Assembly: GCA_022566715.1 (NCBI GenBank)
Contig: JADFIH010000010.1
Span: forward strand, 1 to 32,362
Length of the DNA stretch: 32,362 nt
Direction: 5' to 3'
Origin: Pseudomonadota bacterium
Lineage (GTDB): Bacteria > Pseudomonadota > Alphaproteobacteria > SHVP01
Position 1 is the first letter of the stretch. Every line of letters starts with the position of its first letter. Of this stretch, positions 6,949 through 13,755 are shown one piece after another. Under the pieces are notes generated by a model, which did no database searches, was not told where the DNA came from, and was given only the letters and a program-made list of their open reading frames with translations. Both the position numbers and the translations under genes were made by a program.

Positions 6949-6976
6949 TGGCACTCGTGGGAGGAGAGTGCCAATA
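6946..6976 (+). promoter_or_regulatory. CIRCE-like HrcA operator upstream of rpoH
   Basis: TATTGGCACTC (6946-6956), a 9-base spacer, then GAGTGCCAATA (6966-6976) form a perfect 11-bp inverted repeat. The core fits the CIRCE consensus TTAGCACTC-N9-GAGTGCTAA in spacing and sequence, except for one symmetric change per arm (A to G and T to C) that preserves dyad symmetry. CIRCE is the binding site of the HrcA heat-shock repressor. It lies 27 bases upstream of the rpoH ATG. A GTG at 6968, which the ORF track uses as the rpoH start, lies inside this element. That argues for the downstream ATG. Confidence 0.82.
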
Positions 6977-7003
6977 TCCTCGACACTAACACTGAGAGAT
7001 TCC

Positions 7004-7882
7004 ATGGCGCGCACATCGATACCAACAATTTCCGAAGGGGGCCTGTCCCGCTACCTGCAGGAGATCCGCAAGTTCCCGATGCTGGAACCGGAGCAGGAGT
7101 ACATGCTCGCCAAGCGTTGGCGCGAGCATAACGACACCGAGGCCGCCCACACCCTGGTCACCAGCCACCTGCGGCTCGTCGCGAAGATCGCCACGGGCTA
7201 CCGCGGCTATGGTCTGCCGCTGAGCGAGCTCATCTCCGAAGGCAACGTCGGCATGATGCAGGCGGTCAAGCGCTTCGACCCGGAGCGCGGCTTTCGTCTG
7301 GCGACTTACGCGATGTGGTGGATCCGCGCGTCGATCCAGGAGTACATCCTGCATTCCTGGTCCCTCGTGAAGATGGGCACCACGGCCGCGCAGAAGAAGT
7401 TGTTCTTCAACCTGCGTAAGCTCAAGGGGAAGATACACGCCATCGAGGAAGGCGACCTTCACCCCGACCACGTGACCACGATCGCCACGACGCTCAATGT
7501 TTCGGAGACCGACGTCATCAACATGAACCGCCGGCTCGCCGCGGGGGATCACTCCCTCAACGCGCCGATGCGGGTCGATGGCGACGGCGAGTGGATCGAC
7601 TGGCTGGTCGACGACTCCCCGAACCAGGAGACCACCCTGGCCGAGTCGGAGGAACTGCAAGGACGCCGCGCGCTTCTAGCGGACGCCATGAAGGGCCTCA
7701 ACGACCGCGAACGCCATATCCTGACCGAACGGCGCCTCAAGGAAGAGCCCTCGACCCTCGAGGACCTGAGCAAGGAATACGATATCAGCCGCGAACGCGT
7801 GCGGCAGATCGAGGTCCGCGCCTTCGAGAAACTCCAGAAAGCCATGAGAAACTCGGCGTTGGAAAAGCGGCTCAGTTCCTAG
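7004..7882 (+). CDS. rpoH: RNA polymerase heat-shock sigma factor RpoH (sigma-32)
   Basis: Directs RNA polymerase to heat-shock promoters. I chose ATG 7004 (MARTSIPTISEGGLSRYLQE), giving 292 residues. It follows a GAGAG about 4 bases upstream, and the track's GTG 6968 lies in an operator. Region 2 is seen in LRLVAKIATGYRGYGLPLSE and RFDPERGFRLATYAMWWIRA (2.3-2.4). The RpoH box is QKKLFFNLRKLK, diagnostic of heat-shock sigmas. Region 4.2 is EYDISRERVRQIEVRAFEKL. It follows rluD by 124 bases that hold the CIRCE-like operator, suggesting HrcA control. FtsH, the protease that degrades RpoH in studied bacteria, is encoded elsewhere in this window. Confidence 0.97.
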   Translation: MARTSIPTISEGGLSRYLQEIRKFPMLEPEQEYMLAKRWREHNDTEAAHTLVTSHLRLVAKIATGYRGYGLPLSELISEGNVGMMQAVKRFDPERGFRLATYAMWWIRASIQEYILHSWSLVKMGTTAAQKKLFFNLRKLKGKIHAIEEGDLHPDHVTTIATTLNVSETDVINMNRRLAAGDHSLNAPMRVDGDGEWIDWLVDDSPNQETTLAESEELQGRRALLADAMKGLNDRERHILTERRLKEEPSTLEDLSKEYDISRERVRQIEVRAFEKLQKAMRNSALEKRLSS

Positions 7883-8068
7883 GGCGTTTCCGGTTCGTCT
7901 GGAGTCGCTCAAGGCTGCTGGAATCGCCAAAGGCCGCGTGGCGGCCCGCCGGTTATCCGGCGCGCCCGCGCAGGCGCGGCCATCCTTAATTCATCCGAGA
8001 TGGGCTGGTCCGCTGCCGTGAGCGATAAAATCTAGAGTGGTTCCGGCCAAGCCGGAACGACTCTAGAT
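7879..8068 (+). repeat. Dispersed 3' repeat family, copy A (after rpoH)
   Basis: From the last bases of rpoH (TCCTAG) to 8068 the sequence aligns along its length with the reverse complement of 18157-18328. The best block is GGCGGCCCGCCGGTTATCCG and the following GC-rich palindromes. A variable part lies around 7980-8010. The unit ends with a hairpin (8030-8047 pairing with 8051-8068, one mismatch, loop CAA). Both copies start at the stop codon of the preceding gene and point away from it. The function is not known. It may act as an RNA 3' end or as a terminator-like element. Confidence 0.85.
8030..8068 (+). repeat. 18-bp-arm hairpin closing repeat copy A
   Basis: ATCTAGAGTGGTTCCGGC, loop CAA, then GCCGGAACGACTCTAGAT. 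One mismatch in 18 pairs. No U-tract follows, so it is not a classic intrinsic terminator by itself. Confidence 0.85.
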
Positions 8069-8160: not shown

Positions 8161-8718
8161 CTATGGCCCGGGCTTTGCCCCGGGCGCTGGCCCAGGCTGT
8201 GGCTCAGGCTTGGGCGACGACTTTTTGGGCTCCGTCTCGCCCTGGACGCCGCTGCCCCATTCCGTGATCAGCTCCTTCTGCTGGACCTTCAACTTGTGGA
8301 CCCGTTGCTGGGCGGCGCGTTCCATCACCGAAATGGCGGCATTCGGCAGAACGCTTTGCAACATGACGGCGATTCCCGCCGCGCCCAGCATCAGCATCCA
8401 GGGTAGTGGCTCCCCCAGAAGCTGCATCGCATTGTTGAGGTTATGTCCGCGGCTAAACAGCATGGCCAACACCGGCAGGACGCCGGCAAAGTTCAGCATG
8501 GCGACCGCCAGCGCACCGCGCTTCTGGTCCGGCGTGGCCGGCAGGGCGCGCGCCAGCACGGTCGGGATCATGCCGGCCGCAATGATGATAAAGCTCGGCA
8601 GCGCGAAGATCAGTACGAGCAATCCGAACATGAGCCCGCCAACCATGAACGGCGCCTGCGCCGAGGCGCGGGCGGCGCGGGGGTTGGGTGCGCCGCCGGG
8701 GTTTGCCGAGTCGCTCAT
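8161..8718 (-). CDS. Hypothetical membrane protein, partner of the pseudokinase
   Basis: 185 residues. After a short polar N-terminus there are three or four hydrophobic segments: MVGGLMFGLLVLIFALPSFI continuing into IIAAGMIPTVLA, then VAMLNFAGVLPVLAMLF, then MLMLGAAGIAVMLQSVLP. The cytoplasmic tail has a helical stretch (MERAAQQRVHKLKVQQKELI) and ends in a Pro/Lys-rich low-complexity segment. I do not recognise a named family. The start overlaps the stop of the upstream pseudokinase gene as TGATG, so the two are almost certainly translated together. The shared operon and the tail-anchored kinase suggest a membrane complex, which is inference. Confidence 0.7.
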   Translation of the reverse strand: MSDSANPGGAPNPRAARASAQAPFMVGGLMFGLLVLIFALPSFIIIAAGMIPTVLARALPATPDQKRGALAVAMLNFAGVLPVLAMLFSRGHNLNNAMQLLGEPLPWMLMLGAAGIAVMLQSVLPNAAISVMERAAQQRVHKLKVQQKELITEWGSGVQGETEPKKSSPKPEPQPGPAPGAKPGP

Positions 8719-10778
8719 CAGGGCGACACTCCAATGATTAGAAGAGCGGCCGACATCAGAAGCATGATGAACGAGATCAATCTTGCCGCCTTGGCGCCCA
8801 TGGCGCGGCCCATGTCGACGACCTTTCGGCTGCCGGAGGCGAGTTCGCCGATCTCGACCCGATTGTCCGCGAACTTCGTCTTGGCGGCCCCGAACTGGGT
8901 CTCATCGGAGGAATCACTCCGGAGCGAGTTCACGAGCTCCAGGAGCAAGGTGATATCGCCCTTCTGCTGAGCCACGGCGATGCGCGCCCTGGCATAGTCG
9001 CGCCGGGTCCGGCTGTGGAAACCCGCCACGAAAGGTTCCAACTGGACCCCGAGCCAGCGCGTGAGGTTCTTCATGTTGGGCATATCGAGCCGGGCTTGCA
9101 ACATGGCGAACAATTCCAGGGACAGCATCGCCTTGTCCTGGTTCGCCGTATTCGAGAACGTCATCATCATTTTGTCCGACTGCTGGAGGTAGGTGCCGAT
9201 GAAGGCGGCGATGTGACGGTCCAGCAGGTCGGTGGATTTGTCCGCGGTCGCCGCGGCGTCGTCGAGCGCCGTGAGGAGCCTCGGCAATTCCGACACCCAG
9301 TACTTGGCGACAAAGGGGCTCAGGCAAGGATATCCGGCGTTCAATTCATAGAGGCAGCGCTCGGGACCGAATCCCAATGCCTTGCTAGAGCCCACGACCA
9401 GCAACCGGGAGAAAATACCGGTCGAGGAGCTAAGATCGCTATTGACCTCGCGGCGTTGTTTTATCCATTCCTTGGGCGCTTCGCTGGCGAGCAACCTCAT
9501 GATGGAGGTCTTGAGATTTTGGTCCTTTTTGGTGAAAGCAGTGGCGAGGACCGGCCCGAAGCCGTCGATGGCAATCGACACCTCATCGCGGCGCAAGGGC
9601 CCCATCGGGTCAAGCAGGATCGTGCCGATCGTTACCGGATCGATCTTCCCGGGCAAGGTCGGCCCGTCCCGCTTTCCCTGCGGCTGGGTCCCAAGCATCT
9701 CGATCAGCGTGTCGCCCAGCCTCGGCCGCTGCAAGCCAACGCGCAACCAGTCCAGGAACTCCTCGCTGGCGATCGCCTTTGCCGCCTCCTTAGGGTGACG
9801 CGCAAAAGCGGCGGCAAGCGCGAGATCGTAAGTGTGATCGCGCGACTCGAACGCGAAGGGACGAATGGCCCGTTGCGACAGCACGGCGCGTTTTGTTGCA
9901 AAGCGGCGTCCGCGCAACCAGGCGTCAATCTCGTCAAGTCCCCAGCGCTCGGATATGTCGTCGCACATCAGCCCGCGCAACAGATCCAGGATGGTCGCCG
10001 CGGCCTTGAAACTGCCGGCCAGGGCCGTGAACGAGCTTTGCGTCAGCCGCTCGTCCATGAGTTCGACCGGGTCTCGTCCTTCACCCGGAACCGATCCCGA
10101 TAGCATTGAGAGCAGGGTAACCCCCAGAGCATAGGTGTCGTGCAGCATTGTGCCGATGCCGCGGCCGTCAGGCATCGCCTGCGCGCTTTCAATGGGTTCG
10201 AACGCCGACGGCTGGCGCGAGCCCGCCGGCGAGGTAATGAACTCGCCCAAGAGGAGTGTTTCCTGCTTGGCGTCGGTGAAGAACACATTGTCCGGCCGAA
10301 TGGCGCGGTGGGTCACCCCGGCTGCCTCCAACTCACGCAGCGCCACCACGAACTGTGTCAGATATTCTTGGCCGACCGTGCGCTCGTCGAACGGCTTGCC
10401 ACGCTCGGCCACGGCCTCGGCGGCCGACACGCCCTTGGGCTTCTCGAGAACGACGGCGAAAAGCAATTCGTCCGAGCCCGGCACGGGGATGAGACCGTCC
10501 GTGACGACGGAGAGAAGATTTCTGGGCATTTTTCCTTTGAATGCGGCCAGGGGCTTGTTGCGGACCGGCACGCCGCACCGGCAGACATAGGCCATCATGG
10601 GCCGGCCTGGATCCTGCTGATCCAAGGTCGCGAACACGCGCGTATCGCCCGTTTCGAACTCGCGCAGGCGCGCGCCCAGATCGATCTCGATCCGGCCGCG
10701 CAGGAGCGCCGTGCCGCCGGGTGACGGCGGCGGAGACGGTTCCTGCTCAGGCGATTGCTCTGCTTCCGCCACACTCAT
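8718..10778 (-). CDS. Tail-anchored protein kinase-like protein with degenerate catalytic motifs
   Basis: 686 residues from ATG 10778 (MSVAEAEQSPEQ). The track's GTG is two codons earlier. Residues ~30-290 look like a protein kinase fold. The catalytic loop reads THRAIRPDNVFF where active kinases have HRDLKPxN, so the base Asp is Ala and Lys is Arg while the Asn is kept. The magnesium loop reads LLLGEFITSP instead of DFG. YALGVTLLSMLSGSVP matches the kinase F-helix block. I see no clear VAIK lysine. A long alpha-helical region follows (about 330-650). A C-terminal hydrophobic helix (LISFIMLLMSAALLIIG) suggests tail anchoring in the inner membrane. The likely role is pseudokinase scaffold or sensor. 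A divergent active kinase is possible. It is coupled to the membrane gene downstream. Confidence 0.75.
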   Translation of the reverse strand: MSVAEAEQSPEQEPSPPPSPGGTALLRGRIEIDLGARLREFETGDTRVFATLDQQDPGRPMMAYVCRCGVPVRNKPLAAFKGKMPRNLLSVVTDGLIPVPGSDELLFAVVLEKPKGVSAAEAVAERGKPFDERTVGQEYLTQFVVALRELEAAGVTHRAIRPDNVFFTDAKQETLLLGEFITSPAGSRQPSAFEPIESAQAMPDGRGIGTMLHDTYALGVTLLSMLSGSVPGEGRDPVELMDERLTQSSFTALAGSFKAAATILDLLRGLMCDDISERWGLDEIDAWLRGRRFATKRAVLSQRAIRPFAFESRDHTYDLALAAAFARHPKEAAKAIASEEFLDWLRVGLQRPRLGDTLIEMLGTQPQGKRDGPTLPGKIDPVTIGTILLDPMGPLRRDEVSIAIDGFGPVLATAFTKKDQNLKTSIMRLLASEAPKEWIKQRREVNSDLSSSTGIFSRLLVVGSSKALGFGPERCLYELNAGYPCLSPFVAKYWVSELPRLLTALDDAAATADKSTDLLDRHIAAFIGTYLQQSDKMMMTFSNTANQDKAMLSLELFAMLQARLDMPNMKNLTRWLGVQLEPFVAGFHSRTRRDYARARIAVAQQKGDITLLLELVNSLRSDSSDETQFGAAKTKFADNRVEIGELASGSRKVVDMGRAMGAKAARLISFIMLLMSAALLIIGVSP

Positions 10779-10789
10779 GCGCACACCCC

Positions 10790-10883: not shown

Positions 10884-12290
10884 CTATGCGGCGCGGGAGG
10901 GCGGTGCGGCAACCTCGGACTTGAAGTCCTCGAACTTGCCGCTTCGGGTTCTTTCGAGGTCCTCGTGATAGGTGAACTCAATGCCGAAGGGGTAGCGAAG
11001 CCTATCCTGGAGAAGACCGCGCAGGGCATCCTCTTCGCCATCGGTCAAGGGAACGCGGCTCACCAGCCGAACTTCCAGGTTCTCGAGCGTTTTCTGGATG
11101 ACTTGATAACGCTCGACGGATTCGACGGTGTGGAAGATTCGGTCCAGCACTGGCCAGACCGTGTTTCCGCCGGGCAACCGCAGCATATTCCGCACCCGGC
11201 CAAAAACCTGTTTGATGACCGGCAGGCCGCGCCCGCAAGGACATGGGGGCCCCACTTCCGCGAGGTCCCCGACATCGTATCGGATCAAGGGGGTCGCCAC
11301 ATTGTGCAGGGGCGTCACGACGACGCGGCCGGTCTGACCCGGCTCACAAGGCCGGTCCTCGCCGTCCAGTATCTCGACATAGGCGATTTCACTCTGAATA
11401 TGATAGTGCTCGAACTCCGGACACTGAAGGGCGAGGTAGCCGATCTCCGCGGCGGTATACATGTCGGTGATCGTCAGGCCCCAGGCCTCCCGCACCGCGG
11501 CCCGAATCCCCGGCGTCACCACCTCGCTAACGGTGTCGACACTCTTCAAATTTTCGAACGTGATCCCTTCTCGAACGCAGTACCTTGCGATCTCGCGCAG
11601 GTTGGAGGGAAACGTGAGCAGCACGCTCGGGTTCTTACGCCTGAGCCACTTCACTTGATCCGCGATCGGCGTGTGAATGTGAAGCAACGCGGCCTTCCCG
11701 GTGGGAAAGACCATATTGCCGCTCCAGCGGTCCCAATTCTTTCCGTTCGGGTATTTCGCTTTGTCGGCATTGCCCGCGCCGAGAACCGTCTCCGCGTCCC
11801 GTATGGCGCAGTAGACCCCGGAGAAGTCTCGCCGATGCCATAGGTGGTGGCGCAGCCTCGCCGCGTTGAAAAAATTGTCGCATAGCCCGGTCTTGACGAC
11901 CTTCACCGGCGTGCCCGTCGATCCGGAGGTGCGGATGACAAATGTTTGCCCGTGGTCATCCGGAACCGGCTCGTGCGTCAGTCCATCTCCCGCGTCCTGG
12001 ATATCGCGCCGGGTCAGTATGGGTATCCGCCCCCAAAGATCATCCGTGACTTTTTTCCCGGGGTTGAACCCCGCCGATTTCAACCGCTTGCGGTAAAAGG
12101 AAATCCTTCGATAAGCGTAGTCCAGGAGCTGACGAAGTTGGCTGAATTGATGCCGCTTCAGGTCTTCCGGCGGCCACCACTGGCTCTGCTCGAACTGATA
12201 TTGCAGCGCGAGCCGCATTGCATCGTGGGCGTCCGGAATCGCCGGCCACGCAAGGTGAGACCTTTTCGGTTGAACGAGATTTGGCGCCAT
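10884..12290 (-). CDS. PaaK/CapK-like AMP-forming ligase
   Basis: 468 residues of the phenylacetate-CoA ligase-like (COG1541) adenylate-forming superfamily. These enzymes activate a carboxylate with ATP, then usually form a CoA thioester. Landmarks are FVIRTSGSTGTPVKVV (P-loop-like motif, about 115-130), DMYTAAEIGYLALQC, TPLIRYDVGD (the Asp that binds ribose) and a C-terminal RTRSGKFEDF lysine segment. The substrate is not visible. It is not in a phenylacetate operon, so capsule- or siderophore-type CapK homologues are equally likely. It sits alone between purA and the pseudokinase gene and is bracketed by the 74-bp repeats. The start is ATG 12290, with GGAAGACA about 13 bases upstream. Confidence 0.85.
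   Translation of the reverse strand: MAPNLVQPKRSHLAWPAIPDAHDAMRLALQYQFEQSQWWPPEDLKRHQFSQLRQLLDYAYRRISFYRKRLKSAGFNPGKKVTDDLWGRIPILTRRDIQDAGDGLTHEPVPDDHGQTFVIRTSGSTGTPVKVVKTGLCDNFFNAARLRHHLWHRRDFSGVYCAIRDAETVLGAGNADKAKYPNGKNWDRWSGNMVFPTGKAALLHIHTPIADQVKWLRRKNPSVLLTFPSNLREIARYCVREGITFENLKSVDTVSEVVTPGIRAAVREAWGLTITDMYTAAEIGYLALQCPEFEHYHIQSEIAYVEILDGEDRPCEPGQTGRVVVTPLHNVATPLIRYDVGDLAEVGPPCPCGRGLPVIKQVFGRVRNMLRLPGGNTVWPVLDRIFHTVESVERYQVIQKTLENLEVRLVSRVPLTDGEEDALRGLLQDRLRYPFGIEFTYHEDLERTRSGKFEDFKSEVAAPPSRAA

Positions 12291-12462: not shown

Positions 12463-13755
<1,293 letters not shown>

Follow-up and report, generated by a model that had tools for sequence, protein, structure and literature searches.

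A class-wide family of predicted pseudokinases encoded beside a membrane protein partner in Alphaproteobacteria

A 32,362-nucleotide stretch of alphaproteobacterial DNA (hereafter the window) encodes a kinase-like protein, K, whose gene overlaps that of a multi-pass membrane protein, M. Comparison of K with its relatives leads us to favor, with a probability of roughly 55%, a reading in which K represents a class-wide pseudokinase family that has an obligate membrane partner in M, is catalytically dead for phosphotransfer and acts as a switch or scaffold. Loss of both the HRD aspartate and the β3 lysine is fixed across a family that spans the Alphaproteobacteria, its hosts ranging from Azospirillum and Magnetospirillum, which are free-living, to a Rickettsiales lineage.

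Results

The reading frames of K and M given in a preliminary description of this DNA are both right (Table 1), with an in-frame GTG at 10784 lying near the K start codon. That description had M translationally coupled to K; the K stop and the M start overlap, and a GGAG motif precedes the M start by about 10 nt. The Pfam Pkinase model matches the single K sequence at 2.7e-7 and 30.7 bits, just below its cut-off of 31.7, and also matches 38 of 53 K relatives, while a profile of the K family matches kinases in the Protein Data Bank with an E-value of 2.4e-14. An AlphaFold2 (AF2) model of K adopts a bilobal kinase fold (pLDDT 91, pTM 0.86) with best Foldseek matches to Mycobacterium tuberculosis PknB (TM-score 0.73–0.77 on the target). 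K is thus predicted to have a protein-kinase fold joined to a helical domain; the proposed kinase homology is borne out, and structure prediction, from which the absence of a kinase fold would have counted against the proposal, returned a confident one. The only strong hydrophobic helix in K is at the C-terminus (KD 2.56), where a membrane helix had been described, and a C-terminal hydrophobic segment is present in 86 of 91 relatives. Pfam and NCBIfam scans contain no family of its own for K, and public records annotate the protein as a serine/threonine protein kinase, a label that is probably wrong as to activity. Membership of a defense system was considered from matches of K to LanL, MAD6 and PD-T4-6 and rejected as generic kinase similarity: PADLOC defense kinase models match K only partially, within the kinase domain (best 9.7e-10), and none matches it over its full length.

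Table 1. Features of the K–M locus and its flanks in the window
Feature	Position	Strand	Description
rpoH	6968..7882	+	Convergent gene bordering the conserved locus downstream
M gene	8161..8718	-	185 aa, multi-pass membrane protein
K/M stop/start overlap	8716..8720	-	TGATG, one base shared
K gene	8718..10778	-	686 aa; ATG at 10778, stop at 8718-8720; predicted tail-anchored pseudokinase
K C-terminal membrane helix	8727..8786	-	Residues about 665-684; G661xxxA665 just before
K helical domain	8829..9881	-	Residues about 300-650; from AF2 secondary structure and profile alignment to L234-L236
Most conserved block, GFGPERCLYELNAGYPCLSP	9315..9374	-	K residues 469-488
K kinase-like domain	9888..10715	-	Residues about 22-297; from Pfam/PDB profile matches, AF2 and Foldseek
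EFI replacing DFG	10236..10244	-	K residues 179-181
Catalytic-loop Asn	10287..10289	-	N164, retained
HRA replacing HRD	10302..10310	-	K residues 157-159
purA	12463..13755	-	Upstream flank of the conserved locus

We next examined the pseudo-active site in an alignment of 91 class sequences, to which named loci from a scan for a conserved DNA pattern were added to give 207 rows; these loci comprise the listed matches only and are biased to members carrying ERCLYELN. A scan of genome contigs with the single K protein found no relatives. As described from the window alone, HRA stands in place of HRD, no lysine occupies the β3 position and the catalytic-loop asparagine is retained. An alignment of homologs had been suggested to determine whether such losses are family traits, and in it the HRD aspartate (residue 159) occurs in 1 of 199 relatives, most of the others having Ala, Ser, Gly or Asn there, and a lysine at residues 62–66 in 1 of about 192. 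H157 is kept in 192 of 198 sequences and N164 in 193 of 198, and no other acidic residue is conserved in the catalytic loop. The F-helix block is likewise kept as described, its aspartate (D214) being near-invariant, and R278 and W279 are also near-invariant. Replacement of DFG by GEF-I had also been reported, and here the letters hold and the register does not: E-F-I lies over D-F-G, such that the metal-binding aspartate is changed to glutamate and not missing. Comparison against canonical relatives and MK2 ruled out G178 as the DFG aspartate position in favor of E/D179, and likewise corrected an assignment of C66 as the β3 lysine position. Residue 179 is acidic in 183 of 197 sequences (93%) and is usually followed by Cys; about half of the family has Glu here and many relatives have Asp, and the glycine of DFG is lost. 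N164 and an acidic residue 179 are kept together in 180 of about 198 relatives, a basic R73 is conserved in 179 of 192 and R161 in 180 of 198. The family thus looks to have kept its metal site and lost catalysis, and because residue 179 is conservatively acidic, K could still bind nucleotide or metal.

These active-site data bear on two readings in which K would be an enzyme. It is very unlikely that K remains an active kinase whose catalytic residues have moved elsewhere, for instance with a WNK-like lysine on another strand and a substitute base. WNK1 and WNK3 rank among the better matches of K by profile and by structure, and WNK kinases lack the β3 lysine; they keep HRD and DFG, however, whereas residue 159 is Ala, Ser, Asn or Gly in most K sequences and the loop offers no conserved acidic substitute. 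Alternatively, the kept metal-site residues might mark an unusual catalytic activity, with K resembling SelO (AMPylation) or SidJ (glutamylation) in keeping metal-binding residues and drawing on nucleotide to modify a membrane client by another kind of transfer. SelO and SidJ are kinase folds that lack the usual catalytic aspartate, and the catalytic-loop sequence of SelO, which is without Asp, keeps Asn along with DYG (PMC12599244, table 1). The joint retention of N164 and D/E179 after loss of the HRD aspartate parallels SelO, and the conserved basic residues R73 and R161 could contact phosphates. Against this parallel, SelO and SidJ keep the β3 lysine (PMC12599244) that the K family lacks, and the acidic residue of K is Glu in about half of its members, leading us to regard an atypical enzyme as unlikely. 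Slightly more doubtful still is the extended form of this idea, in which K and M would constitute a class-wide membrane enzyme complex whose kinase fold, without the catalytic Asp and the β3 Lys, relies on its kept metal site for a nucleotide-dependent reaction other than kinase chemistry, directed at a client in the membrane.

K relatives occur in 131 of 385 sampled Alphaproteobacteria genomes, and their association with M is close. Among the first 190 genomes sampled from the class, all 67 that encode M also encode K and none has M without K; one further genome has a K match only, a weak kinase fragment (E 3.6e-7). Among 72,556 plasmid records, the same five Azospirillum replicons carry K and M. 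In 79 of 91 K loci, M follows just downstream of K in the same orientation, mostly at a distance of 30 nt or less, and some of the remaining loci are truncated by contig edges; among the pattern matches listed, 104 of 117 named loci contain M together with K. These counts confirm the fixed partner that had been proposed from one locus. Tandem K-M-K-M arrays at three loci (L057, L080 and L090) indicate that the pair duplicates as a unit. Distance matrices of K and M from 32 species remain correlated with purA, hisZ and rpoH controlled (partial r 0.43, Mantel p 0.0005), a modest mirror-tree signal given that the K–purA partial r of 0.32 is only slightly below it. The pair is also kept at L183 in Candidatus Arcanibacter lacustris (Rickettsiales), so that the module persists in that order. 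Extra M genes without an adjacent K (L278–L283) occur in one genus, three per genome, with no shared neighbors around them and in genomes that also carry a K–M pair, and they indicate that M can be encoded apart from K.

M has no Pfam or NCBIfam family in scans of both collections, and its AF2 model (pLDDT 84) has no significant structural match. The model comprises a broken segment at residues 21–58, a helix at 63–90 and a third that extends into a long C-terminal helix at 104–154, in keeping with the multi-pass protein described, and P52, W154 and G155 are near-invariant. Mean counts per protein of K+R versus D+E in M relatives are 5.6/1.1 at the N-terminus, 2.5/1.5 in loop 57–68, 0.7/1.8 in loop 90–105 and 5.3/4.3 in the tail. 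These charges fit a topology in which both ends of M would be cytoplasmic, which would require the first segment to cross the membrane twice.

Counted from anchor genes, 69 primary contexts have purA upstream on the same strand in 51 cases, rpoH convergent downstream in 45 and both in 38, and an annotated Azospirillum record preserves the gene order hisZ-purA-K-M-rpoH. A survey of gene neighbors between purA and rpoH had been suggested, and it places the locus there, with the qualification that the window also carries a PaaK-like adenylate-forming gene (10884-12290, minus strand) between purA and K, which are usually adjacent in relatives; its PaaK-type (phenylacetate-CoA-ligase-like) name was assigned by eye from the sequence. 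The rpoH–M intergenic region of the window also contains a long inverted repeat at 8032-8068 (about tctagagtggttccggc / gccggaacgactctaga). Seven genomes from the family to which the window belongs lack K and M and have both flanks visible; in these, purA and rpoH are convergent and lie about 25 to 88 bp apart, indicating that K and M are gained or lost together. Second copies lie elsewhere in nine of ten cases, and no neighbor beyond housekeeping genes of the purA/rpoH region recurs in the primary contexts and the 10 second-copy contexts. The purA/rpoH neighborhood probably reflects ancestral location and not function. The closest of the relatives identified (50% identity across the N-terminal half; L100, 5531-7700, genome G008) has K spread over several frames with an intact M downstream, through either decay or assembly error.

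Both genes are under purifying selection, with dN/dS of 0.03–0.24 for K in the eight close pairs that gave a usable estimate and 0.04 to 0.24 for M in five pairs, some of the dS values being rough from saturation. It is scarcely credible that K is a decaying kinase gene without function: its patchy presence in the class, its absence from 8 of the 10 genomes belonging to the same order as the window and its disruption in G008 could be read in this way, but such decay is at odds with these dN/dS values, with residues that stay invariant at 20–33% identity and with the conserved pairing and location. Outside the class, a search of 399 genomes of the phylum with the K family profile yields just three partial matches (L234–L236, from other Pseudomonadota; profile E about 1e-33 to 1e-37). 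All three are canonical kinases with the lysine, HRDIKPGN and DFG intact, two of them matching Pfam Pkinase at 5.7e-36 and 1.4e-39. Homologs with intact HRD and DFG had been named as evidence that would overturn a pseudokinase assignment, and they exist only as these three distant relatives outside the class. The three proteins are homologous to K up to about residue 455, with a different C-terminus that does not match the C-terminal GxGxER domain of K, and the flanking stretches examined around them show no M gene. As this homology covers the kinase domain and the first post-kinase part, K is most readily viewed as a derivative of a canonical architecture. The post-kinase region of the three proteins partly matches itself in tandem, and no Pfam family covers the repeats.

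Judged by residue conservation, the most conserved region of K is its C-terminal helical domain and not the pseudo-active site. A GxGxERxxYxxxxxxxCxS block in this domain is near-invariant, Y477 and C485 occur together in 204 of 205 K sequences, and the other most invariant residues of the protein are G469, G471, E473, R474, D520, Q561 and D625. Placement of the most invariant block in the helical domain would also suit K and M as structural parts of a membrane machine for secretion or envelope assembly, in which nucleotide has no role. The analogy is with EssB/YukC, which K resembles in combining a cytoplasmic pseudokinase, one membrane helix and membrane partners. A machine of this kind is possible though improbable in our estimate, as no other recurring neighbor appears in the primary or the 10 second-copy contexts and the kept metal-site residues would then be needless.

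Discussion

Our analysis supports a working model for the favored reading of K as a pseudokinase switch or scaffold. K would be anchored in the inner membrane by its C-terminal helix with its bulk in the cytoplasm, and would pair with M, a product of the same operon, in a complex probably held together by packing of membrane helices. The retained Asn and D/E residues may continue to bind metal or nucleotide and serve as a conformational switch, and the near-invariant surface of the helical domain may dock a client. Output would then take the form of scaffolding or allosteric regulation at the membrane in place of chemistry, in line with the "scaffold or sensor" role that we, like the preliminary description, infer for K. 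Few families of bacterial pseudokinases are known, and functions are known for fewer; with a fixed partner and canonical relatives outside the class, K makes the role of a dead bacterial kinase testable.

The K–M family is probably undescribed, in that no account of the locus was found in the literature searched, a search whose scope excluded most subscription journals and preprints and which leaves room for a prior description. A 2025 review of bacterial pseudokinase families covers ActPs1-3, GLW, CP1, DYD and DLHK (PMC12599244). By motif definitions K falls outside GLW and DLHK, the two families against which it was checked. In the GLW family, GLW replaces HRD (PMC12599244), whereas K keeps H157 and usually reads HR[ASNG]. 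DLHK proteins are like K in being proteobacterial and in keeping the histidine with divergent Lys and DFG motifs (PMC12599244), but they keep the HRD aspartate and have no membrane region, and K is the reverse on both counts. SelO and SidJ differ from K in their β3 lysine and in having demonstrated AMPylase and glutamylase activity, and neither is among the best sequence matches of the K family. A system that resembles K in layout is EssB/YukC of the T7SSb, a membrane-bound pseudokinase with degraded motifs and membrane partners (PMC12599244). EssB/YukC belongs to a Firmicute secretion cluster and has all three motifs degraded; K, which does not occur in a T7SSb gene context, instead resides at a purA/rpoH housekeeping locus, keeps its metal-site residues and carries a long helical domain.
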